From positions 1-22,057 of IMG/VR virus record IMGVR_UViG_3300037882_002138: 22,057 nucleotides of DNA. The stretch is one strand, 5' to 3'. The notes below the pieces were generated by a model. It was not told the DNA's origin. It did not search any database and saw nothing but the letters and a program-made list of their open reading frames with translations. Numbering within the stretch: the stretch's first letter is position 1; each line of letters starts with the position of its first letter. Origin of the DNA: a virus. A program made the translations under genes and the position numbers. Shown here piece by piece: positions 415-20,539 of this stretch.

Positions 415-1212
415 ATGAAGTCTGTTACCTTAGCCGTGCATCCCCTTTCCAGGGCTGTGCTATGCACCCAGTACGGGGTGCATCCCTTTGCGATCAAGAA
501 CGGCGATCCGCTGTTCGACATTTTCACCGCCACATCCGCGAGGAAATGCAACCCGGTGAACCTCTCCGAGTTTTCCAGTACCATCACCGTCATCATGAAT
601 GACCGCGCCGCGCAGTCCGTGGATCGTTATTCGGCCCGCATCGCGCAGCGGCTCTACAGGTGGCACCGCGAGCAGATGTGCTGGTACACAGTCGGCTGTG
701 TAGCGGCCAAGGCACAGGCCAAAGCCAGCCTCGCCAACTGGCTCGCGGCCAACAAGGTCAGCGAAGATGACTACTCGCTTGATGCCGCAATAAAAACGTG
801 GCAAAGATTTGGGTGGGATTTTGATAAAAAAAACGCCGAAAAATTCGGACACCTGCGGCGTATGTCGGCGCCGAAAGTGTCCAAGAAAACGGGGCGGCGT
901 GCCAAGTCTATTTCCCCACCGCAGGCACTCGCGTGGAAGCGCAGCGAGGTGGATGCGGAACTCGTGATCGGCCGATTCCTTGCCTACTACTCCGAGACCT
1001 TCCGAAGAGTGCCCCGCAGCCTTGCCCAACAGGCGAAGTGCTACACCTATATAGTATATAAGCAACTAAGCGTAAGGCAAGCCGCCGCACGCCTGGGACT
1101 AAAGCGCAGCTCTACCGGATACGCACTCAAAGCCATGCGCACCCGCATGGCCAAAAACCCGACCGTATCACGGCTGATGGAGCAAGCACTCGACCTTCCA
1201 ACGCCCGCGTAG
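415..1212 (+). CDS. Helix-turn-helix protein of unknown role
   Basis: The protein is 265 aa from the ATG at 415. A TTG 75 nt upstream is in frame but would add a Lys/Arg-rich tail that looks like untranslated leader, so I prefer the ATG. The N-terminal third (about 1-60) looks beta-rich. The middle (65-135) is helical and rich in Trp, Tyr and Arg. Residues 150-170 form a basic linker. Residues 218-241 (LSVRQAAARLGLKRSSTGYA and following) have the spacing of a helix-turn-helix. From memory it resembles uncharacterised proteins of Bacteroidota phages and prophages; I know no demonstrated function. Standing alone ahead of the structural genes, it is a candidate transcription regulator, which is inference only. 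Its 3' end contains the first late-promoter-like site, so its own transcription is probably separate. Confidence 0.75.
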   Translation: MKSVTLAVHPLSRAVLCTQYGVHPFAIKNGDPLFDIFTATSARKCNPVNLSEFSSTITVIMNDRAAQSVDRYSARIAQRLYRWHREQMCWYTVGCVAAKAQAKASLANWLAANKVSEDDYSLDAAIKTWQRFGWDFDKKNAEKFGHLRRMSAPKVSKKTGRRAKSISPPQALAWKRSEVDAELVIGRFLAYYSETFRRVPRSLAQQAKCYTYIVYKQLSVRQAAARLGLKRSSTGYALKAMRTRMAKNPTVSRLMEQALDLPTPA

Positions 1213-1226
1213 TGCCGCCACTTTTG
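1190..1226 (+). promoter_or_regulatory. Late-promoter-like site P1
   Basis: The upstream element GACCTT begins at G1192. The -7-like CACTTTTG ends at G1226, 34 nt G to G. The four bases TGGC then lead directly to GTG at 1231. This is the weakest upstream match of the family (GACCTT rather than GTCCTT) but the spacing is exact. The site lies inside the 3' end of the preceding gene. The six-bp inverted repeat CGCCAC/GTGGCG (1216-1221 and 1226-1231, loop TTTT) spans the -7 element. Confidence 0.5.
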
Positions 1227-1230
1227 TGGC

Positions 1231-2049
1231 GTGTTCCAGACCTTACATCATATTGCCCGACAATGCACCCGACAAATGGGCGGCATTAAGGATATTGCGC
1301 TCATTGACCCTGATGATATTCAGAGCCAGGGAGCGCAATATCTGCAACCGAACATCAGCGGCATCACCCTGAAATCGGGGAAGTTCATGTACCTGTTCCA
1401 ACAGGCACGGCTCACGGGCCGATTTCAGTACCAGACCAACACCGATGCCCGCGCAGGGGATTATGTCACCTGCGAACTAAGCGCCCAGGTGCGAGGGGTG
1501 GCACTGGATCGCGATTGGATCGTTCAAAAATTCATGAATCGAAGGATACATGCAGTAGTAACATATCTCAACGGTACGCAGCGCTTCGTAAAGAACCTAC
1601 GCTTCCGGGCCACGCATGACAGCGGAGCCCGCAGGCAGGATAGAGTTTCATACTCATTTACCGCCACGTCCCGACTACTGCTACCACCCCCGCTCATCGC
1701 GGCCCCGCTTAATCTGCCGTATGTCTGCACAGGCGCAAGCGATAGCGGCCCTTGCGACTGTACCGAAACGACTATGATTGAAATCACTACTTCAGCCCCT
1801 AACACCTCCTACACTGTACCACAGGGGAGGCTTGTAACCGCGATACAGGTGCAAGGCACTGCAAATCAAACCGTGAATGTAGGCATCAGCAACGGCGGCG
1901 GCGAGATCGCGCAGGATATACCGCTCCTGGCTAATCAGGACATGTTGACGGGCAATAACGCTTTGTATGCGGATGTGACAAAAACGATATACTTCACCGG
2001 CCTACAGGGCAACAACACTATCAGGATATGGCTTTTGCACGACGCTTAA
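1231..2049 (+). CDS. Tail-associated beta-rich structural protein (putative)
   Basis: The protein is 272 aa if it starts at GTG 1231, or 257 aa from ATG 1276. The GTG is favoured because it lies exactly 4 nt after a -7-like element, the geometry seen at four other genes here. Two parts are visible. Residues about 17-150 (start near KDIALIDPDD) are a mixed domain with many aromatic and charged residues. Residues about 175-272 are rich in Thr, Asn, Gly and Val and look like a beta-sandwich. It lies immediately before fibre genes and overlaps the next gene by 22 nt, suggesting translational coupling. A baseplate or fibre-attachment role is plausible, but I do not recognise the family. Confidence 0.6.
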   Translation: MFQTLHHIARQCTRQMGGIKDIALIDPDDIQSQGAQYLQPNISGITLKSGKFMYLFQQARLTGRFQYQTNTDARAGDYVTCELSAQVRGVALDRDWIVQKFMNRRIHAVVTYLNGTQRFVKNLRFRATHDSGARRQDRVSYSFTATSRLLLPPPLIAAPLNLPYVCTGASDSGPCDCTETTMIEITTSAPNTSYTVPQGRLVTAIQVQGTANQTVNVGISNGGGEIAQDIPLLANQDMLTGNNALYADVTKTIYFTGLQGNNTIRIWLLHDA

Positions 2050-2801
2050 TTATGCTCGCGCTGCTCATAGCAGCGCACACCGCCGCCGCGCAAACGCTCA
2101 CCGTAGACTCGAAGGACGTTCAAATCGCGCGAAAAAAACTACAGATCGGCACGGACACGGCTCGCAACTTCATCAGTATTGTTTCCGTGATTGTATCCAG
2201 CGCCACCCAACGGCAGGCCCCTACGGCCAAAGCCGTGTATGATGCCATCCAAGCCATCGCGGCCCAAGCCGCCGCATCAGGACTGGCCAATGCCGCAAAA
2301 ATCCGCCTGAATAATACCAACACTACCGGGATAGACCTGCAAGGCACGGACGGACTCCGTTTTGCGCAATCATCCGGCACGCTGATAACTGCAAGCATCC
2401 GCGACACATCTATATCGCTTTCCAAAATAAACCGCTCCGGCGCATTAGATAATAACTCTATCAGGTGGAACGGGACCAATTGGGTAGCCTCCGCCCGAAA
2501 CCTATATGATATAGTGAGCGCGAACTACACCGTAGCGGCCTCCCTGAACGAGGTATTCGTAGAAGGCCAAACGGCAGCCATCACGCTGAATCTGCCGCCG
2601 TGCAACACGGCCAACAACGGCGCGAAGTTCATCATAACAAAATCGGGCGGGGACACCTTCAGTATAAGCATAGACCCCAGCGGTTCAGAGACCTTTCAAG
2701 ACGGCGCCGCCGTAAAGCGGCTCTACTCACAAGGAACATCCGTTTCCTGTACCTGCACATTTATTTCTGGGACAGGGAAATGGCATTTTTCAAACATGTA
2801 A
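2028..2801 (+). CDS. Fibre-like protein 1 with signal peptide
   Basis: The protein is 257 aa from ATG 2028; ATG 2052, two bases after the previous stop, would give 249 aa. The longer start supplies two arginines ahead of a hydrophobic stretch and an AAA-Q junction near residue 21, a good Sec signal peptide for signal peptidase I. Residues 60-100 are Ala-rich and helical, and 100-150 resemble fibre-shaft sequence. The last 90 residues (ITLNLPPCN, GDTFSISIDPSG, ETFQDGA, LYSQG) match the C-terminus of the protein encoded at 2819-3934 domain for domain. It is probably a fibre, decoration or exported adhesion protein. A signal peptide on a phage structural protein is odd, because virion proteins normally assemble in the cytoplasm. 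Confidence 0.7.
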   Translation: MAFARRLIMLALLIAAHTAAAQTLTVDSKDVQIARKKLQIGTDTARNFISIVSVIVSSATQRQAPTAKAVYDAIQAIAAQAAASGLANAAKIRLNNTNTTGIDLQGTDGLRFAQSSGTLITASIRDTSISLSKINRSGALDNNSIRWNGTNWVASARNLYDIVSANYTVAASLNEVFVEGQTAAITLNLPPCNTANNGAKFIITKSGGDTFSISIDPSGSETFQDGAAVKRLYSQGTSVSCTCTFISGTGKWHFSNM

Positions 2802-2818
2802 ATTTCATTATTAGCAAC

Positions 2819-3934
2819 ATGAAAAAACTCATTTTTTCAATCATTTTTTCATTTTTCGCGCTGTTCTCCTTCGCGCAAGTGCCGAGCATCACGGATGCGA
2901 CGCTCATCAAGTTTCTCTCCGGGGATAACTCCTTCCTGCGCAGCGCGTTGGATCTAAAAAACTACATCGCTCCTGGCGGTGGTACAGGTACGGTCACCAG
3001 TGTGGGCCTCGGCTTGCCTGCGGAGTTCACGGTCACAGGTAGCCCCGTCACCACATCCGGTACACTCACGGGCGCATGGGCCACCCAAACGGCCAATCTG
3101 ATGTTCGCAAGCCCTAACGGTAGCAGTGGCACTCCTTCTTTCCGCGCCATGGTCGCGGCGGATGTACCTACATTGCCTGCGAACAAGATCACAGGCGCAA
3201 ACTTGACAGCGGCAACGACGAAAATCACGGTCACAGGCGGCACAGGAGCCGTACTGTCCGCTGCTACAGTGGACGTCAACGAGGCGAATCTTACGCTTAA
3301 TAATATAGGCGGCACACTTGGCGTCACGAAAGGCGGCACAGGCCTCACGGCTGTCGGCGGCAACGGTACAATATTAGGCAGCGACGGCACAGCCGCCCTA
3401 TACCTCAATCCGACCATCACCACTACAGCGGCGGCTATCGCCTTCGCCCGAAGCGGCAGCAACCTGAACCTTAATATCCCGGATGCAGATGCGACCAACA
3501 GGGGGACAGTAGGTACAGGCGCACAGACGTGGGCAGGGGCCAAAACATTCACCGGTCAGGTGATCGGTAACGGCGGCGTACAAGGTGCGGCCACGGCTTC
3601 TTTGGCCGCCGTGGACATAAACGGCGTTGAAGACGGCGCATGGGCAAGCACAACGGCCACGCTCACGCTGGATCAGACCAACAACATGGTCAACATCGGC
3701 ACCCTTACAGCAGGTATCACGATCAACCTACCCGCATGCAATAGCACGCGGGATGGCTGGACGTACAGTTTCTACAAGTCTGGCACCGACACCTTCGCGG
3801 CTACCATAGACCCTAACGGCACGGAGACCTTCGTGGACGGCGCTACCACTAAGGTGCTGTACAGCCAGTATAATTCTGCGCAGTGCAAATGCCGTTTTTC
3901 AGGCTCCGGCGCATGGTTTTTCATTCCTCAATAA
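2819..3934 (+). CDS. Tail-fibre-like protein 2 with signal peptide
   Basis: The protein is 371 aa from the ATG at 2819. An in-frame extension upstream to about 2600 is Arg/His-rich and overlaps the preceding gene, so I reject it. Residues 1-19 (MKKLIFSIIF..FSFAQ) form a clear signal peptide. Residues 21-50 (TDATLIKFLSGD) match the start of the next protein. The shaft (about 55-250) carries classic fibre repeats: GTGTVTSVGLGLP, FTVTGSPVTTSGTL and the KGGTG spacer. The last 100 residues are the domain shared with the preceding gene (ITINLPACN, IDPNGTETFVDGA). Shaft motifs of this kind are common in receptor-binding proteins. The encoded protein is probably trimeric. It lies 17 nt after the preceding gene and 7 nt before the next. 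Confidence 0.8.
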   Translation: MKKLIFSIIFSFFALFSFAQVPSITDATLIKFLSGDNSFLRSALDLKNYIAPGGGTGTVTSVGLGLPAEFTVTGSPVTTSGTLTGAWATQTANLMFASPNGSSGTPSFRAMVAADVPTLPANKITGANLTAATTKITVTGGTGAVLSAATVDVNEANLTLNNIGGTLGVTKGGTGLTAVGGNGTILGSDGTAALYLNPTITTTAAAIAFARSGSNLNLNIPDADATNRGTVGTGAQTWAGAKTFTGQVIGNGGVQGAATASLAAVDINGVEDGAWASTTATLTLDQTNNMVNIGTLTAGITINLPACNSTRDGWTYSFYKSGTDTFAATIDPNGTETFVDGATTKVLYSQYNSAQCKCRFSGSGAWFFIPQ

Positions 3935-3941
3935 TTTTAGC

Positions 3942-6900
3942 ATGCAGAAATTCCTTATCATATTTTTGGCGGCATTTCTGCTGCCTTTTTTCATTTCCGC
4001 ACAGCCCGTGGTCACCTCCGCCACCCGCGTGAAACTTTTCAAGGGGGATAGTATTTTTACAGCTCCGCTGTCGGGCTTGGCATCGGCTATCGGGGCGGGG
4101 GGGAATAGGCCGGATTCGGCGTTCGCAATTGGGGCGTATGCTACACCAGGTTACTGGAGTAAGACGGTCAATTCAAATTTGTGGAAGAAGGGCACGCTGT
4201 CTTTTCGGACTGCGGATACCACGGGGATGCTGACATTACACCAAGCGGATTCTGCAAATTTGAAACCGTCACTGTATTTCTCCGGGGACGGGGAATATAT
4301 CTGGAAAATTAAGAAAGATAGTCGCTCTGGCACAGGAACAGATTTCAATTTTGTAAGGAAATACGGCCCTTCTGGTTCAGATGGGCTGAATAACAATCAA
4401 ATTTTTGCGTTTGGTTGGAATGTAGCACCTGGCGGGGGCATGGAAAACCCATCATTCCCTTCCTGTTCTTACAGGATAGAGGAAAATTTCAAAAATGGCG
4501 TAAATAATGCAAACGCATTTGAATGTCACCTTCCTCACATTGAATTTTCAAATAATACTGGAAGAAGGCCATTAAGTGGTTATTTTTCAAGAAATCACAT
4601 AAATCCGACAGGAAACTGGTCATTCTCATCCGATTTTATAACCTTTAGCGATTATCAGACCAATACGCCTAAAGGCGTTTGGGCGTTCGGTACAAATACA
4701 GGATACGTTAAGGGTATCACATTTGCCGATACCGCAAATGTGATGATGGCTAAAAACAATGTGGGCGGGCTTTGGCAGCGAAATGCGGCTGACAACGCAT
4801 TCATTAGAATGTTGATGGTTGATAATGAAGATCGGATTTTATTAGGCGCGTCTGGCCCCGCCTCAAGGGTAGCAGCCTATAATGAGGTTCAAATTACAAA
4901 CGGCGGATACCTTTGGAATGAACTGGCCGAATTGAAGATTGGTAAAAATACAAGCACAGAAGGCGTTATTACATATTTTAATAGTGAAAGTAATGATAAC
5001 GTGTACTTTAGCAACCCGCTGGCCAGTAATTATCTTCGGATAGGGACTACAAACGAGGGGAGTGGCAATTACATGACTACCTTGTTTTCAGCGACGGGAG
5101 AAAGGTATTTCCAGGCCCGTCAAGATGTATCAGACCGCCTGCTAAATCTCGCAGGCAGTAAGGTTGCTATCAATGCTTATGCTCCAAGCCAAACCCAAAC
5201 CTTCACCGTTAACGGCACCACGCAATTGGGGACAGGGTCGGATGCAAATGCTAATAGCATATTGAACCTAAAAACTAATGCTTACAATGCAGACATTTTC
5301 GTTAATAACCAAAGCCCGGAAGCATTGTCTACCTCTGCGGTAGGCGGCATCGCACTTATCAATGACGGAGGCGTCGGGGCTTTGTATGGGAAATATTCAG
5401 GATCAGGGAATACGGGCTGGGCCAAATTTCTAAACATGAAAGATCCTAACGGAGCAAGCACAAACCAAGTACTGCAGTGGAACGGCACCACATGGGGCCC
5501 CGCTTCTGTAGGCGGAATTGGAGGGTCAGGCACCACCAATTTCGTGACAAAATTCACAGGCCCAAACAGCATTGGAAACTCTACAATAACAGATGACGGC
5601 ACCGACGTGGGGTTCAATTGGGGCAGTAAAGTCCGTATCTATTTTAGCTCAAACTATAACATGGGAATGCAAAGGGGGACAGGTAGAGACCTTATCTTGT
5701 TTGCTAACTCTCCGGACAACGATGCAAAAGTTTCTTTGGTCGCGGCGAATATCACCGCACTTACGGCAGATCACTTAGGGAATGTAGGGATCGGAACCAC
5801 ATCGCCATCGGCTTCCTACAAGTTGGATATTATCGGGAAAGCCCGCGCACAGGGGCTTCGCGCCGAAGGCACCACCATGCAGCCAAGCCTCGAACTCGCA
5901 AACACGACGCCCACAACGGGCAAAACATTCACGCTCGGAAGCAGCAATACAGGCAACTTCTACATCAGCAGCGATGTGGCGGGTGATGCGATCTCCGTAA
6001 CACACGCTACGGGGGATGTGACGATCACGCCGAAATTAAAACTAACAACTGTAGGCACCGTCGCGACCTCCTTGGTCGGGCGAAATGCAGCGACGGAGGT
6101 TGCAGGGGTAACAATAGGAAGTGGGTTGGGGCTTACGGCTGGCACGCTCAGCGCCACGGACGCCTCCACCACAAACGAACTGCAAACGCTTAGCAACACC
6201 TCTGATGCAACATCACACACTGCTACACTATCCAACAGTGGCGGCAGCCTGAAACTTGTAGAAGGCAGCAATATTACCATCGCGACAACAGGAACAGCGC
6301 TGGATGGGATAGTGACAATAAGCGCCACAGGCGGGGGAAGTAGCCCCGTAATAATTACCCCGGCGGCCATCACGGTAGACCAAAATAATTACAGCCCGAC
6401 CGATTGGTCTACGGCGACCATAGTCAGGATTTCAGGAACGACACAAATTTGGGGGATCACAGGATTCTCTTCCTCCGGATTTTCTGGGGGGCACACAAAG
6501 AGAATAATTAATGTAGGGGCAAAATCTATCTATTTCGCAGGCGAACACCCATCCAGCACCGCCGCGAACAGAATATCCGCCACAAATGATTTTGTATTAG
6601 GGGCAAAAAAAAGCATGAATATAATTTTTGATGCTACCCTAAGCAGGTGGATTATAGAAGGCACAGAACGAGTGCCGGAAATAGAACATAATTGGAGTGC
6701 TGCGAGCCAAACAGGTAGTGAATTTGAAAACACTGCTTTTACGGCGATTGGTACGGGGACAGTGAATACGGGGGGGAATGCGGCGACGGAAGAACCCGCA
6801 ACAACAAAAATTAGCACAGGGACAACATCAAGCGGCGGCGGCAGCATTACCCTCGGAAAAACTGTAGCCCCCATAGCCACACGGCTTGGACACAAATATG

Positions 6901-7328
6901 TTGAAGGGTATTTCACGTTACTATCTACAAGCAACGCCTCGAACCGATATACGGCTGGATTAATAATCAGCACTACTACAACAGGTACATTTGGGGCGGC
7001 TAACACCTGTGGGGTACGCTATACAGACAACGTGAACTCCGGCCGATGGGAACTGTACAGCATCAATAATGGCGGCACCACCGTCACGCAAGATCTCGGT
7101 ATAACTGTTTCATCAGCGCCTACGAAAATAAGGATAGAGATGGATGATGCAGGGGCTACAATACGCGCCTACTTAAACGAAGAAATGAAGGGGCAAATAT
7201 CAGGGTCATCATCACTGCCAACCGAATTTGGCAATTATTTTGGAAAATTGCAAATAATCAAATCCGTAGGCACTACGGCTGTCGTTATGGATTGTTATAG
7301 CATGAAATCTGGCATACATACCTATTAA
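3942..7328 (+). CDS. Large tail fibre / receptor-binding protein with signal peptide
   Basis: The protein is 1128 aa. Residues 1-20 are a signal peptide ending ISAQ. Residues 21-50 (TSATRVKLFKGD) match the N-terminus of the preceding fibre. The stretch at about 110-480 is beta-rich, and its DNA is visibly more A/T-rich than the flanks, suggesting a module of different origin. Residues about 540-630 contain TNFVTKFTGPNSIGNS and GNVGIGTTSPS, motifs typical of Bacteroidota fibre proteins. A Ser/Thr-rich shaft follows. Residues about 914-1128 resemble a lectin-like beta-sandwich (GRWELYSINNGG, IRIEMDDAGATIRAYLN). Proteins with GIGTTSPS repeats often end in an intramolecular chaperone of the S74 type; none is seen here. 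This is the best candidate for host recognition. The stop codon overlaps the next start by one base. Confidence 0.8.
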   Translation: MQKFLIIFLAAFLLPFFISAQPVVTSATRVKLFKGDSIFTAPLSGLASAIGAGGNRPDSAFAIGAYATPGYWSKTVNSNLWKKGTLSFRTADTTGMLTLHQADSANLKPSLYFSGDGEYIWKIKKDSRSGTGTDFNFVRKYGPSGSDGLNNNQIFAFGWNVAPGGGMENPSFPSCSYRIEENFKNGVNNANAFECHLPHIEFSNNTGRRPLSGYFSRNHINPTGNWSFSSDFITFSDYQTNTPKGVWAFGTNTGYVKGITFADTANVMMAKNNVGGLWQRNAADNAFIRMLMVDNEDRILLGASGPASRVAAYNEVQITNGGYLWNELAELKIGKNTSTEGVITYFNSESNDNVYFSNPLASNYLRIGTTNEGSGNYMTTLFSATGERYFQARQDVSDRLLNLAGSKVAINAYAPSQTQTFTVNGTTQLGTGSDANANSILNLKTNAYNADIFVNNQSPEALSTSAVGGIALINDGGVGALYGKYSGSGNTGWAKFLNMKDPNGASTNQVLQWNGTTWGPASVGGIGGSGTTNFVTKFTGPNSIGNSTITDDGTDVGFNWGSKVRIYFSSNYNMGMQRGTGRDLILFANSPDNDAKVSLVAANITALTADHLGNVGIGTTSPSASYKLDIIGKARAQGLRAEGTTMQPSLELANTTPTTGKTFTLGSSNTGNFYISSDVAGDAISVTHATGDVTITPKLKLTTVGTVATSLVGRNAATEVAGVTIGSGLGLTAGTLSATDASTTNELQTLSNTSDATSHTATLSNSGGSLKLVEGSNITIATTGTALDGIVTISATGGGSSPVIITPAAITVDQNNYSPTDWSTATIVRISGTTQIWGITGFSSSGFSGGHTKRIINVGAKSIYFAGEHPSSTAANRISATNDFVLGAKKSMNIIFDATLSRWIIEGTERVPEIEHNWSAASQTGSEFENTAFTAIGTGTVNTGGNAATEEPATTKISTGTTSSGGGSITLGKTVAPIATRLGHKYVEGYFTLLSTSNASNRYTAGLIISTTTTGTFGAANTCGVRYTDNVNSGRWELYSINNGGTTVTQDLGITVSSAPTKIRIEMDDAGATIRAYLNEEMKGQISGSSSLPTEFGNYFGKLQIIKSVGTTAVVMDCYSMKSGIHTY

Positions 7329-7552
7329 TGCGCATATTTCTCCTCCTCCTAATCCTTCACCTATCCTTTGCCTGCGCCCTGGCACAGGCAAGCCGCGACA
7401 GAGTCCGCACGGTGGATACCGTTACGGTTCGGGCGCGGCGGGTGCTTAGATATGTATCTATGTCATCGCCGTGGGATACGGCATCATGGAAGCGGATGAA
7501 TATGCCGCCCCTTCCTGCGGACACCACCCGCCACAAAAAGCCCCGAAAATAG
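7328..7552 (+). CDS. Small exported protein of unknown function
   Basis: The protein is 74 aa and its ATG overlaps the preceding stop by one base (TAATG), indicating coupling. Residues 1-20 (MRIFLLLLILHLSFACALAQ) form a strong signal peptide. A Cys at position 15 sits in SFAC, which is not a canonical lipobox. The mature part is about 54 residues, very basic at the end (RHKKPRK), with a Pro-rich stretch near 60. Small, exported, Pro-containing proteins include outer-membrane spanin subunits, but evidence for that is weak. The stop codon lies in the loop of a terminator, so this is the last gene of the adhesion block. Confidence 0.6.
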   Translation: MRIFLLLLILHLSFACALAQASRDRVRTVDTVTVRARRVLRYVSMSSPWDTASWKRMNMPPLPADTTRHKKPRK

Positions 7553-7563
7553 CGGGGCTTTTT
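7535..7563 (+). terminator. Rho-independent terminator overlapping a stop codon
   Basis: AAAAAGCCCCG (7535-7545) pairs with CGGGGCTTTTT (7553-7563), an 11-bp stem with the loop AAAATAG. The TAG stop of the preceding gene (7550-7552) lies in the loop, so the last codons form the left arm. It ends the adhesion operon 18 nt before late-promoter-like site P2. Confidence 0.88.
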
Positions 7564-7580: not shown

Positions 7581-7618
7581 TTGTCCTTTTTCTATGCCTG
7601 ATCCGTGGCCCATTTTTG
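7581..7618 (+). promoter_or_regulatory. Late-promoter-like site P2
   Basis: TTGTCCTTTT lies at 7581-7590, and the -7-like CATTTTTG ends at G7618. The G-to-G distance is 35 nt, one longer than in the other members. GGCT then leads to ATG 7623. It stands behind the terminator at 7535-7563 and would drive the head operon with a near-leaderless mRNA. Confidence 0.65.
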
Positions 7619-7622
7619 GGCT

Positions 7623-8759
7623 ATGAACGTGCAGGACTTACAAAATACACGATGGTTTCGCAGCGGCCCGGCAGCATTAGGACTTGCCGCAGGCGGCATT
7701 GACACAGAGGGGCGCATGCTCCGCGATGTGGTGATGGTGCAGGAAGGCGAAGCCCTCGGCCACGGCGTACACCTCGAGGCCGAGTTCGTAGAAAGCGTGA
7801 TCGCTTACGATCAGGCGACCTACGGCACCACAGGTCTGAAAGCCCGCCTCGGACACCCAACGGCAAGTGGCGACACCATGGGGACGCAGTTGGGCGTATT
7901 CACCAACTTCCGAAAACGCCGCAAAGACGGCAAGATGCAGGGCATCGCCGACCTGCAAATATTGCAAGCCGCTGATGAAAGCCCCACCAAACCGGGCATG
8001 GGCAAATGGGTGATGCAGATGGCGCAGGAGCGCCCCGACTTCATTATGAGCAGCATCGTTTTTGTGCCATCCGGCTACTACCAGAAAAAGCCAAACGGTC
8101 ACAAAAAAAAGGTGGCGGGCATGGAGGATTATGATGCCGAATTGCCCCTGTATGTTGACTTCGATGCGGAGGCCGGCGCACAGCACCACTACACTGACCT
8201 CGTAGAACAGGGAGCCGCTACGGATAGCCTGTTCAGCCATACCGCAAACACACACCTCCTTAGTGTGCAGGTGGAAAACTGGCTGAATGAAAACCCGCAA
8301 ATCACAAATTTTCTTAAACAAAACCCTGAAGCGGTAGCCAAATGGCTGAGCCGTGCGGGGTATAGCATCACAAAAAAAATGAGTTTCAACCTAAAAAAAT
8401 GGCTATTCGGCGAGGATGACGCGGGCCTGCCTACCGCCGAAGATGTGGCACAGTTGCGCACGGCACTGACCGAAGCCCGCGACGAAATCAAGGCCCTGCG
8501 CACGGAGCGCGATGAGTTCAAAACAAAATTTGAGGAAGCCGACAAGCGGGCCTCCGAACTCGCTACGGAAGCCGAAACCCTGCGCAAACAGGTGGAGCAA
8601 CTTAGCGCGGACTTGAAAGACATCCAGACCCGCCTATCAGTCGTGGAAAAATCCCCTGCCGTACCATCGGTGGGTGGGGACACGCCTCCGGCTGATTTGC
8701 AAACCGGACGGGCCTACAAAAATACAGGCATGGCTAAGCGCTTTTCCAAAAACGCATAA
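7623..8759 (+). CDS. Prohead protease with C-terminal scaffold region
   Basis: The protein is 378 aa from ATG 7623. A GTG 18 nt upstream is in frame but lies inside the promoter-like site. Residues about 20-190 resemble the serine protease fold of capsid maturation proteases. A conserved-looking His is at 78 (LKARLGHP), and a candidate nucleophile Ser is at 143 or 144 (FIMSSIVFVPSGY). Residues about 200-255 are a linker. Residues about 272-342 form a long charged heptad coiled coil typical of phage scaffolding proteins. The basic C-terminal tail (KNTGMAKRFSKNA) could bind the capsid protein. Immediately upstream of the major capsid gene is the usual place. The family is known to clear the scaffold and trim capsid proteins during maturation. 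Confidence 0.75.
   Translation: MNVQDLQNTRWFRSGPAALGLAAGGIDTEGRMLRDVVMVQEGEALGHGVHLEAEFVESVIAYDQATYGTTGLKARLGHPTASGDTMGTQLGVFTNFRKRRKDGKMQGIADLQILQAADESPTKPGMGKWVMQMAQERPDFIMSSIVFVPSGYYQKKPNGHKKKVAGMEDYDAELPLYVDFDAEAGAQHHYTDLVEQGAATDSLFSHTANTHLLSVQVENWLNENPQITNFLKQNPEAVAKWLSRAGYSITKKMSFNLKKWLFGEDDAGLPTAEDVAQLRTALTEARDEIKALRTERDEFKTKFEEADKRASELATEAETLRKQVEQLSADLKDIQTRLSVVEKSPAVPSVGGDTPPADLQTGRAYKNTGMAKRFSKNA
8379..8759 (+). CDS. Possible nested scaffold protein from an internal start
   Basis: An in-frame ATG at 8379 (residue 253 of the protease-scaffold protein) follows a run of eight A's, like the A-rich leaders at other starts here. Translation from it would give a 126-aa protein, MSFNLKKWLFGEDDAG onward, containing exactly the coiled coil and basic tail. 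Lambda C/Nu3 uses this arrangement to make free scaffold from the protease gene. The domain boundary and start fit this model; actual use of the start is inference. Confidence 0.4.
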   Translation: MSFNLKKWLFGEDDAGLPTAEDVAQLRTALTEARDEIKALRTERDEFKTKFEEADKRASELATEAETLRKQVEQLSADLKDIQTRLSVVEKSPAVPSVGGDTPPADLQTGRAYKNTGMAKRFSKNA

Positions 8760-12220: not shown

Positions 12221-12257
12221 TTGTCCTTTGGGGTGGTGGTTTGGTGGCCGATTATTG
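12221..12257 (+). promoter_or_regulatory. Late-promoter-like site P3
   Basis: TTGTCCTTTG (12221-12230) and the -7-like GATTATTG ending at G12257 give the standard 34-nt G-to-G spacing. The TTTG at 12227-12230 also fits a host -33 element with a 19-nt spacer. This is the one member without an adjacent start codon; ATG 12292 lies 34 nt after the G. Confidence 0.55.
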
Positions 12258-12291: not shown

Positions 12292-12660
12292 ATGGAACAA
12301 GAAAAAATCGGCATCAAAGAATCTGCCGAACTCCTCGAATTTCTGGGCGCATTCGCCTCTCAAACCGACGCCGTACTCGCTGACGGCAAGGTGGTCACTA
12401 CCGAACTGATCGGATATTGGACTACCCTCACAAAAGTGAAGCCCGCTATAGAAGGCCTGAAAGAGGTGCCTCGTGAATTGGCCGATCTGGATGATACAGA
12501 GCGTTTCTTCCTTGTTAGCGTATTGGCTGATGTCCTCAAAATGCGCCGCACTGACGTGGAATTAATCTTCGAGGATGGCTTTGATCTTGCCCTCCGTAAT
12601 GCGCAGTTCATCAAACGGGTGGGCCAATTGCGCAGGCCAACTCCAGAAGCCGTAGCGTGA
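12292..12660 (+). CDS. Tail assembly protein (putative)
   Basis: The protein is 122 aa from ATG 12292. A TTG 51 nt upstream is in frame but lies before the -7-like element and is rejected. It is predominantly helical and acidic (IKESAELLEFLGAFASQTDA, ERFFLVSVLADVLKM). It overlaps the next gene by four bases (GTGA). Position between the head block and the tape measure gene, and pairing with a longer overlapping gene, resembles the tail assembly chaperone pair of siphophages. No slippery heptamer was found at the overlap, so a lambda G/GT frameshift is not supported. Function is inferred from position. Confidence 0.5.
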   Translation: MEQEKIGIKESAELLEFLGAFASQTDAVLADGKVVTTELIGYWTTLTKVKPAIEGLKEVPRELADLDDTERFFLVSVLADVLKMRRTDVELIFEDGFDLALRNAQFIKRVGQLRRPTPEAVA

Positions 12661-13989: not shown

Positions 13990-14015
13990 CATATAGGATT
14001 GTGTGTTATTTATAC

Positions 14016-14047
14016 GCCCCTGTCGGAGATACACGACAGGGGCTTTT
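14016..14047 (+). terminator. Rho-independent terminator
   Basis: GCCCCTGTCG (14016-14025) pairs perfectly with CGACAGGGGC (14034-14043), leaving an 8-nt loop. TTTT (14044-14047) follows. The last T's are also the first bases of late-promoter-like site P4, so terminator and promoter share sequence. Confidence 0.9.
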
Positions 14048-14082
14048 GTCCTTTTGGGCGCATTTTAAGCCCCCGAAATTCG
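14046..14082 (+). promoter_or_regulatory. Late-promoter-like site P4
   Basis: TTGTCCTTTT (14046-14055) and the -7-like GAAATTCG ending at G14082 are 34 nt apart G to G. TGGC then leads straight to ATG 14087. The -7 element is the least like consensus (TTCG), but both spacings are exact. Confidence 0.6.
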
Positions 14083-14086
14083 TGGC

Positions 14087-14614
14087 ATGACACCTGTAGA
14101 TCAGTTGCGCGAATACATACACGCCGAAGCGCAAGCGTGGGTGGCGGACTGGGTAGCGCGGCGAAAAGCCGTGCTGGCCAAACGCGGCATTAATGCGAGC
14201 GGCGAACTGATCCGCAGCATGGAGTATGCAGCGGTTCAGGTATTCAATCAGGCTATTACCAATACAATAGAAATCGCATTCGATGAGCATGGCCGATATG
14301 TGGACATGAAGCGGCTGAATGTGCCGGACGGCGGCGTGGATATGATACAGAACATCGCGTCATGGATCGTGAAAAAGGGCCTGTATGATCGTTTCGTGCA
14401 AGGCTATATCCAGCGGCGCAAACTGAAAAAGGCCCCGCCATCCGTGCTGAATAATATGGCGTGGGCGATTGCTATCAAGCGGCGCAAAACCCGACGCTCG
14501 CGAGCCTGGTACAACAAGAGCAAGAGCGCGGCCATTACCGACCTATTCAACAAGGTGGCGGCAGGTATGCCGGAATTGGTGTCCGACGAAATCAAAAAAG
14601 GATTCACACAATAA
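14087..14614 (+). CDS. HK97 gp10-like neck / tail completion protein
   Basis: The protein is 175 aa with ATG 4 nt after the -7-like element. An N-terminal helix (VDQLREYIHAEAQAWVADWV) is followed by a basic segment (RRKAVLAKRG) and a beta-rich middle. The C-terminus is strongly basic, with WAIAIKRRKTRRSRAWYNKS ahead of a final helix. Size, a basic C-terminal half and position ahead of the tape measure gene fit neck proteins that join the tail to the head. The assignment is by resemblance; a search against HK97 gp10-type profiles would decide. It lies 12 nt before the tape measure gene. Confidence 0.5.
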   Translation: MTPVDQLREYIHAEAQAWVADWVARRKAVLAKRGINASGELIRSMEYAAVQVFNQAITNTIEIAFDEHGRYVDMKRLNVPDGGVDMIQNIASWIVKKGLYDRFVQGYIQRRKLKKAPPSVLNNMAWAIAIKRRKTRRSRAWYNKSKSAAITDLFNKVAAGMPELVSDEIKKGFTQ

Positions 14615-14626
14615 TACATATATGAT

Positions 14627-17542
14627 ATGGCAGTTCGGCAAGATCAGGTACGACTTAGGCTCGATTTCATCACGGATGAAAGTCAGCAATTGGCTAAGAC
14701 GCTACAGACAACAAAAGAATATAATCAGCAGATCAAAGAAGCCACGACCAACGTGGCAAAATATGAGCGCGAACTACAGAAAACGGGCGTCAGTGAGGCG
14801 AAGCGCGCCCAACTCCTGAAAAATATAGAGGCCGAACAAAGGCGCATCGCGGGTGCCGAGCGGGCTATATACGAGGAGGGAAAGAAGATAGAAAAATTAG
14901 ACCTGAACAAGGTCGCGCCGGCGCAGTTGGAGCAACGCCTGAAGCAGATACGGCAGGAGATAAAACTCATAGCCGATCAGAGCAGCCCGGCTTTCAAGTC
15001 GTTGCGAGAAGAGTCTCAGAGGATTGAGGAGCAATTCCGCAAAATAAAGGGCCTGAACGCAGGAGGCGGCACTGGTGGCGGCGGCTTGTTGGGTAGTTTG
15101 GGTGGATTTGCGGGCATCGCAGGTCGGGCGCTCCCGCTTATCGGTGGCGCGGTGGCGGCTTTTGAGGGTTTGAAAAAGGCAGTGACCGGCGCGAGCGAAT
15201 TGGAACAGTTGACCATCTCATTTGAAACATTCTTAGGCAGTGCCGACAAGGCAAAGCAGGTCATACAAGACCTGAAGGACTTCGAGGTGAAAACCCCTTT
15301 TGAAGCGGAGGAGGTTAATAAGGCGGGCCGTGCCCTTTTGGCCTTCGGAACCACCACGGATGAACTGATACCGACACTGACGCAAATCGGTGACGTAGCG
15401 GCAGGCACGGGGAAGGACTTCAACGAGTTGGTATTGATCTACGGGAAAGCACAAACGCAAGGCCTGATACAGGGCGAAGAGTTGAACCAGTTGGCAGAGG
15501 CGGGCATACCGATATACAAGGAACTGAGTAAGGTGCTGAATGTCGGCGAAAAAGATATACGGAAGTTGGGCGAACAAGGCAAAATCGAGTTTTCAGCCCT
15601 GCAAAAGGTTTTTCAAAACCTTACAGGCGAAGGCGGCAAGTTTGCGGGCCTGATGGAGAAACAAAGCCAAAGCATTGGGGGCTTGTATTCCACCTTGAAA
15701 AGCGCATTTGGTGAGTTGCTCACGCAGTTGGGCACGGCATTGGCGCCCGCAATCAAAGGGATACTGGATGCCGCGATAGGGTTGGTGAATTACATCAAGC
15801 CGGTATTGATACCCGTATTTCAATTGTTAGGATCTACGGTTTCGTTTGTTTTTGACTCCATTGGTAGTGTGGCTAAGACTACTGCGGGGCTTTTTTCTGG
15901 ATTGGGATCGGGGATTGCCTCACTGATGGAGCGGGCCAAAGATATTCCTATCATTGGTACCTATTTCAAGGTGATCGGTGCCGCCATACAGGTGGTGCGT
16001 GATGCGTTCCAATCGCTTACCGCGACATTTTCGGGCATAAAAGCAGCCATAACCGACTTGTTCACAAATTTCGGGCAAAACATGGGCAACGCCTACAGCG
16101 AGGCCCGTGACGCTGTACTACAAGATGAAGCCCGACAACGCGCCGAGGATGAACGAGACAATCGCCAAGCCAGCGAGGCCGAAAAGCAGCGCGAAATACA
16201 GGCCGCGCAAGATGTAGCCAGGGCAAAAGCCGATGCACAGAAAAAAGCGAGGGAGGAAGCGAGGAAACGGGCAGAGGAAGCATTCAAAACGCAGTTGGCG
16301 GCACAGGAGGCCCACTTGCGGCGAGAGGAACTTCTGAATGAAATAGATCATATAAATAAAAATGTCTCTGAGCAACAATATCAAGAGGACATATTATTTA
16401 TAAAAAAGAAAGGATACGAGGCCCAACTTCAAGTCTACAAAAAATTTGGGAAAGAGCAGGAAAACGAGGCACTGGAACTGCAAAAGAAACTGGCCGAGAT
16501 CAACCAAGCCCTCACCATCCCGCGCACCGCACCTGTCGCCGCTATCGGTGGCCGGAATGTAGGCGGGCAGGTAAGCACAGGGCAGGACAACACGGGGCAA
16601 TTGCTGAACAATCAGCAGTTGGGCGAGGATGCACTATTGGCGAATCTTCGCTCTAAGTTTGAGCGGGCATTGATTACCGAACAGGAGTATGAACTGCGCA
16701 GGATGGAATTGAAGCGGGCGTTTCTGGCTGAAGAAATCGCGATATTGCAGGCGGCAAGTCAGCCGCAGGTGGAGGAGATACAGAAAAGGGAAGAGCAAAA
16801 GTTGAAGGTAGAGGAACGTATTTCCTTTAAACGGCTGGAAAACCAACGGGTTACGGACGAAGCGAAAGCAAGGATGGAGGAGGTGCGTTTGGATACTTTC
16901 AACGCCTCTGTGGATTTAGCAATTAGTATTTTAGGCCGGGAGGAGGCCGCAAGGCGAAAAAATGCAAGCGTAATCAAGGCTTTCAATATCGGGGAAGTTC
17001 TTGTCAATGGGATAGCAGAGGTGCAAAAGATATTTGCAAAGTATGCTGCGGTTCCAGGGGGTCAACTTATAGCCCTTGCAGAGTCCGCGCCTGCGATCAT
17101 TAGGAGAACAGCCGCAATTGTAAAAATTGCAACGACAAAGTTTGCAGGTGGTGGCTTCACTGGATCAGGGTATGGCTCAAGCGATGAAACCGGATTCAAG
17201 CCGGCAGGCGTAGTTCACGAAGGGGAATATGTAATTCCGAAGCGCATAGTAGAAAGCCAGACAGCCGCGCCACTGATCGGCCAACTCGAGCGGTGGAGAA
17301 CGCGCAAATATGCGCAGGGTGGATTTGTGGCTCCGGGCAGCACGGATTTGCGCCCGGGCGTGGCAGCGAACACCTCGCAAACGATAGTACAGCCTGATTT
17401 GATGGCCTTATATGAGGCTGTTCAACTCTTCGGTAAAAAGGTAGATGCCATGCAAACGGAGGTGAAAGCGAGGGTGGTGGTGACGGAGTTGGAAGATGCG
17501 CAAAGCGAACTGAATACGCTGCGCAGCGATGCGGCTTTGTAA
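14627..17542 (+). CDS. Tape measure protein
   Basis: The protein is 971 aa. Residues 1-140 form a long coiled coil. Residues 143-165 form a Gly-rich hydrophobic segment. Residues about 185-400 match the conserved tape measure domain, with the characteristic KTPFEAEEV near 222 and LNQLAEAGIPIYKELSKV in its middle. Hydrophobic helices follow at about 375-450, then charged coiled coils at about 490-620. The C-terminus has the GGF...GVVHEGEYVIPK pattern near 860-870 common in tape measure proteins. It sets tail length and helps DNA entry. At roughly 0.15 nm per residue a tail of about 145 nm is expected. The ATG at 14622 is in another frame and is rejected. Confidence 0.95.
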   Translation: MAVRQDQVRLRLDFITDESQQLAKTLQTTKEYNQQIKEATTNVAKYERELQKTGVSEAKRAQLLKNIEAEQRRIAGAERAIYEEGKKIEKLDLNKVAPAQLEQRLKQIRQEIKLIADQSSPAFKSLREESQRIEEQFRKIKGLNAGGGTGGGGLLGSLGGFAGIAGRALPLIGGAVAAFEGLKKAVTGASELEQLTISFETFLGSADKAKQVIQDLKDFEVKTPFEAEEVNKAGRALLAFGTTTDELIPTLTQIGDVAAGTGKDFNELVLIYGKAQTQGLIQGEELNQLAEAGIPIYKELSKVLNVGEKDIRKLGEQGKIEFSALQKVFQNLTGEGGKFAGLMEKQSQSIGGLYSTLKSAFGELLTQLGTALAPAIKGILDAAIGLVNYIKPVLIPVFQLLGSTVSFVFDSIGSVAKTTAGLFSGLGSGIASLMERAKDIPIIGTYFKVIGAAIQVVRDAFQSLTATFSGIKAAITDLFTNFGQNMGNAYSEARDAVLQDEARQRAEDERDNRQASEAEKQREIQAAQDVARAKADAQKKAREEARKRAEEAFKTQLAAQEAHLRREELLNEIDHINKNVSEQQYQEDILFIKKKGYEAQLQVYKKFGKEQENEALELQKKLAEINQALTIPRTAPVAAIGGRNVGGQVSTGQDNTGQLLNNQQLGEDALLANLRSKFERALITEQEYELRRMELKRAFLAEEIAILQAASQPQVEEIQKREEQKLKVEERISFKRLENQRVTDEAKARMEEVRLDTFNASVDLAISILGREEAARRKNASVIKAFNIGEVLVNGIAEVQKIFAKYAAVPGGQLIALAESAPAIIRRTAAIVKIATTKFAGGGFTGSGYGSSDETGFKPAGVVHEGEYVIPKRIVESQTAAPLIGQLERWRTRKYAQGGFVAPGSTDLRPGVAANTSQTIVQPDLMALYEAVQLFGKKVDAMQTEVKARVVVTELEDAQSELNTLRSDAAL

Positions 17543-17578
17543 TGTCCTTTTACACGTGTTTTTTGGCCTTCAAATTTG
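17542..17578 (+). promoter_or_regulatory. Late-promoter-like site P5
   Basis: ATGTCCTTTT (17542-17551) starts at the last base of the tape measure stop codon. The -7-like CAAATTTG ends at G17578, giving the standard 34-nt G-to-G spacing. CAAC then leads to ATG 17583. It is the only member besides P1 without a terminator in front. Confidence 0.65.
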
Positions 17579-17582
17579 CAAC

Positions 17583-17894
17583 ATGAACGAACACGCTATC
17601 ACTTATGACAGTATGTTGGCAATGATCGCCAAGGGAGGGCCGACGCCTTTCCGAATTGTGTATGTGATCGGACAGGGCAAGAACAAGGGGCAACTGCGCG
17701 AGTTTGTCGCGTATTACGGCGCGCCAAATCCTAAGGACATCAGCCCCCAAAGCGGCGGGGCTCCGCGTAGCGAACCCAAAAAATACAGCCTGAAAGCGGG
17801 CGGGAATTTGTTTTTCACGGAGTTCAGCACTCAAAGGCTGCTCACTCTTTTCTCATACAATATCATCACCATAAATGGAAAAAAAGTCATATAG
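17583..17894 (+). CDS. Small protein preceding the portal gene
   Basis: The protein is 103 aa from ATG 17583; an in-frame ATG at 17529 lies inside the tape measure gene and is rejected. Residues 20-50 (PTPFRIVYVIGQGKNKGQLR) look like a beta hairpin. A Pro/Gly/Ser-rich loop follows (about 55-72), then a C-terminal strand-helix part (GNLFFTEFSTQRLLTLFSYN). Its last 20 bases overlap the portal start, so the two are likely co-translated. The family is not recognised. Position suggests a role at the head-tail joint or in portal assembly. Confidence 0.6.
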   Translation: MNEHAITYDSMLAMIAKGGPTPFRIVYVIGQGKNKGQLREFVAYYGAPNPKDISPQSGGAPRSEPKKYSLKAGGNLFFTEFSTQRLLTLFSYNIITINGKKVI

Positions 17895-19239
17895 CCCGCC
17901 AATTGGTGAGCAATACATGGTATCCGGTAATGCCGCCGTCGTATTTTCTACCGTCGTGCCGGGTAACGCGCAGAACGATATCGGGAAACCTGAAAAAAAG
18001 GCGATAGGCGGGCAAAGCGTGGAGTACATCGCATGGGGGACAAATAACAACCTACCCTACTACCGCGAGGAGGTGGCAACGGGCAATAACATTGTAGGCA
18101 GCCTAATCCGCCGCAAACGCGACATCGTGTGCGGCCAAGGCTGGTATGCCTACCGCGAACGCTATGTGGATGATAGCAGTGGTATGATGAAGCGCGTGGT
18201 GGATGAAGTGCCGATGCCGGATGGCGCTGCGCGGTTTTTTGAGCAATTCCGGGAGGAAGCAAAGAAAATTGTCGGGGAACTGATGAAGCATGAACTGTGC
18301 GCCGTGGAGTTCATTCGCAATCGCGACGGTATAGGGCTTAATTCTGTGAATGCCACAGAAACGAAGTACATTAGGGCCGCGCCAAAAACAAAAGGGAAAA
18401 TCAAAACATGGCTGTGGTCGAACGCCTGGACAGAAGGACAGCGGAAACAATTGAGCGTATCCGATCAGGTGGTGCAACGTTTGGAAACTTATAACGGTAT
18501 CCCATCGGGCCCCGGCCAGCAGGCTGGGTTTGTGTTGGCCTTGTCGGATGATCTATTCAATGACGGCTATTATCCGATCCCGGCATGGTGGGGAGGTCGG
18601 CACTGGGTGGAATTGTCGAATATTATCCCCATTTTCCACCTCAATAACCTGAAAAACATGTCAGCGCCACGGTGGCTGCTTATCATCCCGCACGATTACT
18701 TCCTACACTACGAGAAATACAACGCGGCCACCGATGAGCCGACCCGCGCTGAAGTGTTGAAAGATGCGCAGGCAAAGAAACAGGCGTTCGTTAGCGACTT
18801 CAACGAACTTGTGACCGGCGCAGAAAACACAGGGAAAACCCTGACTATTGAATCCGTACGCGAAGAAGTGTATGGCAAGATGGTGGATAAGCGGATCATG
18901 GTAGAGCCGCTGGTGATTGACCTGCGGGATGATGCCCTGATAAAATTATATGAGAGCAGCAATGTGGCGAACATATCGGCGCAGGGGCTCCACCCTACCC
19001 TCGCGAACATAGAAACGCAGGGCCGACTCAGCAGTGGCACGGAGATACGAAATGCGTTCCTGCTTTGGCTTGTGATCGCGGCCCCGGCTTACCGGGATCA
19101 CCTTATGCGGGTGGTCAACACCGTGAAGGCTATCGAAGGCTGGCCCGCTGATATTCACTATGCTATTCGCGACGCCGAACTCACCACGTTGGCCGAAAAT
19201 CCGGGCGGCGTGAAACAAAGCGAACGCCCACCCGTATGA
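17875..19239 (+). CDS. Portal protein
   Basis: The protein is 454 aa. It resembles the portal type of Bacteroidota siphophages. An N-terminal YIAWGTNNNLPYY stretch (about 51-63) is followed by helices carrying GNNIVGSLIRRKRDIVCGQG (70-89). A central beta-rich region contains PIPAWWGGRHWVELS (about 234-248). A C-terminal helical part contains LSSGTEIRNAFLLWLVIAAP (about 385-404), probably the wing-to-crown helix. The protein forms the dodecameric channel at the vertex through which DNA is packaged. It overlaps the preceding gene by 20 nt and the next by four (ATGA). Confidence 0.85.
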   Translation: MEKKSYSPPIGEQYMVSGNAAVVFSTVVPGNAQNDIGKPEKKAIGGQSVEYIAWGTNNNLPYYREEVATGNNIVGSLIRRKRDIVCGQGWYAYRERYVDDSSGMMKRVVDEVPMPDGAARFFEQFREEAKKIVGELMKHELCAVEFIRNRDGIGLNSVNATETKYIRAAPKTKGKIKTWLWSNAWTEGQRKQLSVSDQVVQRLETYNGIPSGPGQQAGFVLALSDDLFNDGYYPIPAWWGGRHWVELSNIIPIFHLNNLKNMSAPRWLLIIPHDYFLHYEKYNAATDEPTRAEVLKDAQAKKQAFVSDFNELVTGAENTGKTLTIESVREEVYGKMVDKRIMVEPLVIDLRDDALIKLYESSNVANISAQGLHPTLANIETQGRLSSGTEIRNAFLLWLVIAAPAYRDHLMRVVNTVKAIEGWPADIHYAIRDAELTTLAENPGGVKQSERPPV

Positions 19240-19892
19240 CGGCAGCGCAATATCACGAACACCTAAAGGTCATAGAAGCGGCCAATCCTCGCGAGCCACT
19301 GCTGCACTTCCTGCGCAGCGGCTATACGGCGCTCAATGCAATCTATTTGCATCGGGCATTGAAAAACATGTCGGAAATGCCTATTTTAGTCGAAAATTAC
19401 GAAGGCGAGGCCGAAGGAAACGAAGAACTACCCGACCATGATACGGATGATGCACATGATGGCCCTACATACCAGGCACTCACGGCTGAAATAAGAAGGG
19501 CCTACAACCACATCCGGGCCTCGCGCAATGAATACCATCGGTGCCGAACCGATGACGAACGGGCTAAGGTGGCGGATCAAGTCCGCAGCGCGTGGATGAG
19601 CATTATGTTCGCGATTAAAAAACGCAAGGCTTATGCGGATACGGGGCAGATCATAGAGGTAGAGGTTGATGATGACGAACTCCCCGATAATGCCGTGATG
19701 CTGGCCAAACGACTGAACTCCATCCGGGCGCAAATAGCACAGGAAAAGCGCAAAATCCTCGAAATCGCCGCGCTGAAGGACAGTGATCCGACAAGGGCCA
19801 AGCGGCTTGACACGGCGGAGCGGCAGTTGAAGCGGCTGGAAGTGTTGAAGGGGATGGCGGTGGAGAAGTTGAATAGCATGAAAAACGAATAA
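19236..19892 (+). CDS. Acidic coiled-coil protein after the portal
   Basis: The protein is 218 aa, coupled to the portal gene by an ATGA overlap. Residues 1-45 are helical and include an aromatic-rich stretch (LRSGYTALNAIYLHRALKNM). Residues 50-75 form a very acidic linker (EAEGNEELPDHDTDDAHDG). Residues 78-215 form long charged helices with coiled-coil character, interrupted by an acidic segment (VEVDDDELPDN). Conserved-looking motifs for any enzyme were not found. Position between portal and terminase suggests a DNA packaging or head completion factor. No family is recognised. Confidence 0.6.
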   Translation: MTAAQYHEHLKVIEAANPREPLLHFLRSGYTALNAIYLHRALKNMSEMPILVENYEGEAEGNEELPDHDTDDAHDGPTYQALTAEIRRAYNHIRASRNEYHRCRTDDERAKVADQVRSAWMSIMFAIKKRKAYADTGQIIEVEVDDDELPDNAVMLAKRLNSIRAQIAQEKRKILEIAALKDSDPTRAKRLDTAERQLKRLEVLKGMAVEKLNSMKNE

Positions 19893-19896
19893 GGAT

Positions 19897-19921
19897 CCTC
19901 GCAGGAATGCGGGGCTTTTTT
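19897..19921 (+). terminator. Rho-independent terminator
   Basis: CCTCGCA (19897-19903) pairs with TGCGGGG (19908-19914) with one G-U pair, a GGAA tetraloop of the GNRA type and CTTTTTT after the stem. It starts four bases after the previous stop and leads directly into site P6. Confidence 0.8.
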
Positions 19922-19922
19922 G

Positions 19923-19959
19923 TTGTCCTTTTCTGCGCTCCCCTACCCCGGCATCTTTG
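19923..19959 (+). promoter_or_regulatory. Late-promoter-like site P6
   Basis: TTGTCCTTTT (19923-19932) and the -7-like CATCTTTG ending at G19959 give the 34-nt G-to-G spacing. CTGT then leads to ATG 19964. Its -7 element differs from the host consensus TAnnTTTG only at the first base, making it the clearest promoter of the family. Confidence 0.7.
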
Positions 19960-19963
19960 CTGT

Positions 19964-20539
19964 ATGAGAAGGGTACAAAAGCGACTATACACGCTAAAAG
20001 ACTGGGAATCCGGTGATGACTTTGACCGGATGTGGATGTCTATGCAGGAGCCAGATAGATGGGTTTTGACCCCTCGGGAAGATAGTACGCTGCAAAAACT
20101 CAAGGCGGTGTGGGCCTTGGTAATGGAAAATACCCGTCCTACTCAGCGGGTCAAAGCCATCACGGAGGCGTATGACTGCACCCCAAAAACCGCTTATACT
20201 TATATCCGGCAGGCGACCGATCTGTTTGGCGATCTGATGAATATAGACCACGAACTTGAGATGCACCTGGCTTATGATAAGGCCCTGCATCTGATGCAAT
20301 TGGCTGAACAGGACGGAGACATCGAAACCGCGCAAAAATGCCTGAAAACGGCGCAAGACATTAGAGAAAAAATAGAAAACAAAACCCCACGGCAAGCCAA
20401 ACAGTATGTGGCGATTACGATTACCAACAATCCGAAGGTTTTAGAGGCAAAAAATGCCGAATCCCTTGAATTATCACAGGAAATCGAATATGAGCCTATA
20501 TTAATCCCATCCCGCGCACATGCAGATATATCTGAATAG
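19964..20539 (+). CDS. terS: Small terminase subunit
   Basis: The protein is 191 aa from ATG 19964. A start at 19907 would run through the terminator and promoter-like site and is rejected. Residues 62-90 (RVKAITEAYDCTPKTAYTYI and following) have the spacing of a helix-turn-helix, the DNA recognition part of small terminases. Residues 95-140 are a helical, likely oligomerising region. The C-terminus ends in a short acidic tail. Overlap by 20 nt with the large terminase gene fixes its identity. It binds the packaging site on phage DNA and loads the large subunit. Confidence 0.8.
   Translation: MRRVQKRLYTLKDWESGDDFDRMWMSMQEPDRWVLTPREDSTLQKLKAVWALVMENTRPTQRVKAITEAYDCTPKTAYTYIRQATDLFGDLMNIDHELEMHLAYDKALHLMQLAEQDGDIETAQKCLKTAQDIREKIENKTPRQAKQYVAITITNNPKVLEAKNAESLELSQEIEYEPILIPSRAHADISE

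Follow-up and report, generated by a model that had tools for sequence, protein, structure and literature searches.

We report a family of putative late promoters in which a GTCC box stands at a rigid distance from a Bacteroidota-type −7 element, which itself often lies four bases before a start codon. The family was identified in a 22,057-base phage sequence, the entire IMG/VR record IMGVR_UViG_3300037882_002138 (hereafter the window). Our reading, to which we assign a probability of roughly 0.72, is that these elements serve a large group of temperate Bacteroidota phages as late promoters, that they are activated by a phage regulator and that about half of them give leaderless mRNAs. An initial annotation had described six such sites in the window; the analysis confirmed that description and widened it from a single contig to a promoter class across phages that has a candidate regulator.

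Six sites with a rigid spacing in the window

All six sites of the initial annotation were found at their positions, with 34, 35, 34, 34, 34 and 34 bases from the first base of GTCC (GACC in site 1) to the final G. As had been claimed, exactly four bases (N4) separate this G from an ATG or GTG in five of the six, site 3 being the exception. For comparison we used the nearest relatives of the window phage, namely phages from IMG/VR together with a prophage of the Saprospiraceae genome G017 (record JAEUUT010000070.1). The sites and three intrinsic terminators next to them are as follows.

1192–1226, + strand: site 1, GACCTT..CTTTTG, then TGGC and GTG at 1231; equal spacing and an N4 start in G001, G002 and G017
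7538–7563, + strand: intrinsic terminator just 5′ of site 2 (hairpin of −12.9 kcal/mol and T-run)
7583–7618, + strand: site 2, GTCCTTT..CATTTTTG, spacing 28, N4, ATG at 7623; the counterpart in G001 (at 5269) also has spacing 28 and N4
12223–12257, + strand: site 3, GTCCTTT..GATTATTG, 3′ end ATTG, leadered, 34 bases to ATG at 12292; in the counterparts of five relatives (G003, G004, G005, G011 and G015) the ATG is 33–39 bases downstream
14015–14047, + strand: intrinsic terminator adjoining site 4 (hairpin and T-run)
14048–14082, + strand: site 4, GTCCTTT..GAAATTCG, 3′ end TTCG, N4, ATG at 14087, which has no alternative in-frame start upstream
17544–17578, + strand: site 5, GTCCTTT..CAAATTTG, N4, ATG at 17583, directly 3′ of the tape-measure stop codon; orthologous promoter in about 12 relatives in the form GTCCTA..CTTTG
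19896–19922, + strand: intrinsic terminator adjoining site 6 (hairpin of −10.9 kcal/mol and T-run)
19925–19959, + strand: site 6, GTCCTTT..CATCTTTG, N4, ATG at 19964

The arrangement had been held to be hard to explain by chance, and this was borne out. GTCCT-N26/27-TTYG-N4-ATG occurs four times on the + strand of the window and never on the − strand, against a mean of 0.0025 in 400 dinucleotide shuffles, while GTCCTTT by itself occurs five times on + and not on −. A chance origin is thus ruled out by the shuffles together with the opposite-strand counts. Given that site 1 appears in the relatives as GACCTA or GCCCTA with position and spacing unchanged, it is probably a degenerate but true promoter. 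It overlaps the last codons (1185–1212) of the gene of the candidate regulator described below, and the relatives retain G[A/C]CCT at this place; coding and promoter sequence therefore overlap.

The motif recurs among phages, and its spacing is separable from the start codon

The gapped-motif search that the initial annotation had proposed was carried out in relatives, and it showed that the family far exceeds six sites and extends beyond the window phage. The constant element is GTCCT[A/T][C/T]-N20-[C/T/G]AnnTT[T/C]G, in which exactly 27 bases separate GTCC from TTYG. In phage contigs bearing the motif, about 1.08 Mb in all, and with no ATG required, spacing 27 was counted at 141 sites on the late-gene strand, compared with 1–10 for each other spacing and with 6 on the opposite strand.

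We then considered contigs picked solely for a related terminase and not for the motif. These carry GTCCT[A/T][C/T], 27 bases to TTYG, and then mostly four bases and an ATG. All 35 sites open reading frames of 96–569 amino acids, and the start codons are secure because in 22 of the 35 no in-frame start is possible between the preceding stop and the N4 (or N5) codon. An A at −11, six bases before the G, was present in 25 of 28 cases in these terminase relatives and in 89–93% of sites, although it had not been a selection criterion. The base 5′ of the start codon is C or T at 34 of the 35 sites, compared with 127 of 205 other gene starts in the same phages. Moreover, about 20 of the 35 directly follow an intrinsic terminator (hairpin and T-run), and the room for a promoter is therefore limited to the 40 bases 5′ of the gene. 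A scan of IMG/VR DNA with GTCCT-N22-CATNTTTG-NNN-CATG returned 53 stretches, most with a large open reading frame at the ATG. There were 78 exact 12-base matches, up to five per record, in 42 phage records and one in the control; since 41 of the 42 records had been retrieved by means of a similar pattern, only the extra sites are independent.

Of the 141 spacing-27 sites, 80 lie four bases from the start codon, 3 lie three bases and 4 lie five bases from it. When the sites used for retrieval are left out, N4 is found in 22 of 38 sites in the terminase relatives and in 38 of 87 in other phages. In leadered sites the ATG is 7–48 bases downstream and the 27-base spacing is unchanged. The fixed geometry of the initial annotation therefore stands for the spacing, but its constant part is the GTCC-to-TTYG distance and not the distance to the ATG, with about half of the sites being leadered. 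Because leadered sites, among them site 3 and its five counterparts, retain the spacing, the spacing is by this comparison a property of the predicted promoter, and leaderlessness a gene-specific choice separable from it.

These data also bear on the idea that the element is no promoter but a translation-initiation or RNA-binding signal within longer transcripts. The four-base distance that is fixed in about half of the sites would suit such a signal; retention of the 27-base spacing where the ATG lies 7–48 bases off would not, nor would the many sites directly 3′ of terminators or a 3′ half that matches the Bacteroidota −7 element. We regard this idea as very improbable.

Two further structures were seen within the element. 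In many relatives, the spacer of the promoter before the g17583 homologue holds a palindrome around TTAATTAA with flanking arms that differ (L007:7107, L008:7092, L009:7112, L010:5763, and also L014:875, L016:7199 and L026:7142). It was rejected as a common element, its distance from GTCC being variable and other sites lacking it; it is a possible extra operator. At L066:2141-2182 and L026:3591, GTCC pairs with GGAC in the spacer to form a hairpin followed by T's, so that in some cases a predicted terminator overlaps the promoter.

The element is confined to phages

In the 6.1-Mb host genome G017, all four exact copies of the motif, and the best one-mismatch copy (48081), lie inside the prophage. 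Across 120 host-family genomes a 13-base pattern stayed at chance level: the reversed control matched 26 times and the pattern itself 19 times, twice within the G017 prophage. Given that the motif is at chance in these genomes and prophage-confined in G017, the GTCC element is, on the counts, a phage motif with no host regulon, and its reading as a host promoter is ruled out by the same counts. A related explanation is that a host alternative sigma factor or host activator reads the whole promoter while the phage protein acts otherwise. It draws on the host-like −7 half, and the function of the regulator is one that we infer; however, neither the host-genome counts nor the variation of the element among phage lineages (GTCTTAA in Flavobacterium phage 6H) fits a host reader, and we consider it quite unlikely.

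Promoter class and predicted transcription start

The 3′ half of the element agrees with the −7 element of Bacteroidota sigma A promoters, TAnnTTTG, having the A at −11, as well as a TTYG that is there by selection; its first base is mostly C, T or G, not T alone. TTTG was not found at −33, a position held by GTCCTWY at the fixed 27-base spacing. The element thus has the form of a phage-specific upstream box, at chance in host genomes, joined to a host-type −10 element.

In start-site maps of F. johnsoniae the −7 element spans −12 to −5 with its G at −5 (PMC6847099), and in those of F. psychrophilum the −7 G is likewise at −5 (PMC9723704). Because the published maps place this G at −5, the predicted +1 at N4 sites is the A of the ATG, and these sites would give leaderless late mRNAs. 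The initial proposal of a phage promoter family with the start codon at the predicted start is supported by the rigid spacing, the absence from hosts, the position of the G at −5 and the adjoining terminators.

The promoter could also be real with its start shifted a few bases up- or downstream, giving very short leaders or a start within the codon. The F. johnsoniae analysis allowed four or five bases from the −7 element to the start (PMC6847099), and leadered sites show a weak initiator signal, both of which would accommodate a shift. The sharp N4 peak, 80 of 141 sites against 3 (N3) and 4 (N5), and the C or T preceding the A of the start codon speak against it, and we hold a shifted start to be unlikely, while giving it some weight.

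A candidate regulator accompanies the sites

The proposed activator is encoded in the window itself:

415–1212, + strand: candidate late-promoter activator, with an N-terminal domain of about 155 amino acids common to motif-bearing phages and a C-terminal helix-turn-helix

An iterated hidden Markov model (HMM) built on the N-terminal 155 residues found one member each in 31 phage contigs, and one copy of the family is present in nearly every motif-bearing phage. Members include gp8 of Bacteroides phage BT-TP2, Leef1_39, Ingeline1_41 and a gene of Flavobacterium phage 6H. Outside the window clade the family is mostly single-domain, with 150–190 residues.

We further selected phages by the regulator first, using tblastn with BT-TP2 gp8 alone or a regulator profile over host genomes. 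The gp8 search led to two Porphyromonas gingivalis prophages and the faecal phage MT835542, whose late strands each carry four GTCCT-27-TTYG sites, and the profile led to host prophages in G349 and G248, with five and three sites on the regulator's strand. In a further genome from the profile search, G302, the contig stops just past the regulator gene. All five phages and prophages selected by the regulator alone thus have 3–5 sites. The Bacteroides thetaiotaomicron phage BT-TP2, which was chosen by terminase similarity, has five, with predicted transcription starts at 6561, 10631, 18017, 25851 and 32356; one of the five, that at 32356, is predicted to be leaderless, its start being the A of an ATG. 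Among phages without the regulator, B124-14 has no site and crAss001 (first 50 kb) has one. Phage 6H has a divergent member of the family together with a variant element, GTCTTAA, and in Leef1 the element is one base shorter, as expected if regulator and site change together. The GTCTTAA copies in 6H (L104) lie at 31111, 29440, 20606 and 13630 on the − strand, at late-strand genes and about 26–28 bases before TTTG, TTAG or TTG. In addition, a GTCCT..TTCG site with spacing 28 lies just 5′ of the regulator gene in G349 (G349:C16:154053, − strand), which suggests autoregulation in some phages. The initial annotation had supposed that an additional GTCC might be bound by a phage factor: the co-occurring candidate regulator favors the phage factor, but the box replaces the host −33 element and is not additional to it.

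The C-terminal part of a 415–1212 homologue matches Pfam Sigma70_r4 (E=9e-5). In an AlphaFold2 model of 415–1212 (predicted local distance difference test score, pLDDT, 84) the C-terminal domain resembles DnaA domain IV (Z 10.2) and sigma region 4 (Z about 6), and the best structural match among viral models is the Leef1 member of the family (template modelling score 0.73 on target, E 1e-3). The region 4-like helix-turn-helix is limited to the window clade, and region 2 was not recognised. Pfam gave no match over the shared N-terminal domain and PHROGs none for the regulator members scanned, so that naming the regulator through these databases was without result over that domain. A fold search with a short regulator was uninformative (best Z 4.2 over 55–65 residues). 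Against named phages, tblastn with the L064 and L053 regulators and megablast with L064 gave no match, and megablast with L083 led to a single faecal record, which is unannotated and has a coverage of 3%.

The phage protein might instead be a divergent sigma factor that contacts both elements in place of the host sigma; Foldseek gives a weak similarity to sigma factors over the full length, and the window clade has the sigma4-like C-terminal helix-turn-helix. However, the PDB holds no match at E<=0.001, short members outside the window clade lack the sigma4-like part, and the −7 element is nearly identical to that of the host; we find this improbable.

Proposed mechanism

In the reading that we prefer, host RNA polymerase would recognise the host-type −7 element, [C/T/G]AnnTT[T/C]G, at −12 to −5, and the host −33 box would be replaced by GTCCTWY at −39 to −33. 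The most likely role of the 415–1212-family protein is to bind GTCC and to recruit the polymerase or stabilise it, thereby turning on the late genes. Transcription would start five bases past the G, which in about half of the promoters is the A of the ATG, giving a leaderless mRNA, while the remaining promoters of the same phages would have leaders that range from a few bases to about 45. The shared N-terminal domain would hold the common function, the helix-turn-helix of the window clade being an addition. The simplest reading is a phage appropriation of the host polymerase, with a phage protein supplying the contact at the −33 position.

Several points weigh against this scheme. The role of the regulator is its least certain step, given that co-occurrence could reflect shared phage ancestry and that other genes common to these phages remain alternative partners of the motif. 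The common N-terminal domain has no clear known DNA-binding fold. Some clade 1 sites sit 5′ of the regulator gene, and the regulator itself may be partly late in that clade. As for the start, C or T at +4 (69%) and A at +5 (51%), counted from the G, are both enriched in leadered sites. A YA dinucleotide at the expected offset occurs in 14 of 49, against 15 and 17 elsewhere, without a peak, and was rejected as proof of the start position. The initiator signal is therefore weak, and the start position stays a prediction.

Gene context of the window

The window covers a phage late module whose major genes are all on the + strand. Two genes define this context:

14627–17542, + strand: tail tape-measure gene (PHROG 9959, E=2.6e-61)
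20520–21986, + strand: large terminase gene (tblastn to phage records, some annotated as terminase)

Positions 22042–22057 of the window, AGATCGGAAGAGCACA, are the start of an Illumina adapter and not phage sequence, and the first 44 bases of the related contig G001 (L033) are the other Illumina adapter. The window (21987–22057) and contigs L005, L009, L010, L014, L016 and L018, which are independent of one another, end 16–158 bases past the terminase stop; this may reflect either the physical end of the genome (cos or terminal repeat) or an assembly break common to them.

Comparison with known systems and significance

A description of the GTCC promoter motif was not found in the open-access literature, a search with most subscription journals and all preprints outside its coverage. 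The class shares with housekeeping Bacteroidota promoters (sigma ABfr; −33 TTTG and −7 TAnnTTTG) the −7 half, the A at −11 and a TT[T/C]G ending at −5, and differs from them in GTCCTWY at −39 to −33, the rigid spacing, the frequent C or G as first −7 base and its absence from hosts. T4 middle promoters combine a MotA box with the host −10 element, a phage protein reading the box in place of −35. The likeness is that a host −10-type element is kept while a phage-specific box replaces −35; here, however, the host phylum is another, box and protein are unrelated, the genes are late and the predicted mRNAs are often leaderless.

In phage Mu, Pm is activated by Mor at a dyad that has its centre at −43.5 (PMC4390567), and Ltr of S. 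aureus Phi13 belongs to an activator-dependent late/middle promoter system (PMC13123087). In both, a small phage protein turns on later genes through the host polymerase, as proposed here. Unlike the Mor dyad, the box described here is short and non-palindromic and lies at −39 to −33, and neither site nor protein is shared. Leaderless genes with a −10-like signal beside the start codon are known (PMC3160421), and like them the N4 genes have their start codon at the predicted transcription start. Leaderless mRNAs make up 5.5% in F. psychrophilum (PMC9723704), and 3.7% of B. theta mRNAs have a leader under 10 nt (PMC7366714), compared with a predicted half or so of one phage promoter class here. 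Because phage transcripts in general are often leaderless (PMC5312081), what is new is the promoter class with its fixed geometry, and not leaderlessness alone.

We think it somewhat probable that this is a phylum-wide late-promoter class, in which an undescribed activator family substitutes GTCC for the host −33 contact and the promoter is fused to the start codon, about half of the class being leaderless, structural operons included. If true, this would be the first system of late-gene control for a large set of temperate Bacteroidota phages, in lineages from gut Bacteroides and oral Porphyromonas to marine and freshwater members. It would provide a sequence rule for annotating the late operons and true start codons of these phages, as well as a compact, phage-only gene-expression switch for Bacteroidota. 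It would also raise the question of why leaderless mRNAs are made at half of the late promoters, though the hosts rarely use such mRNAs.

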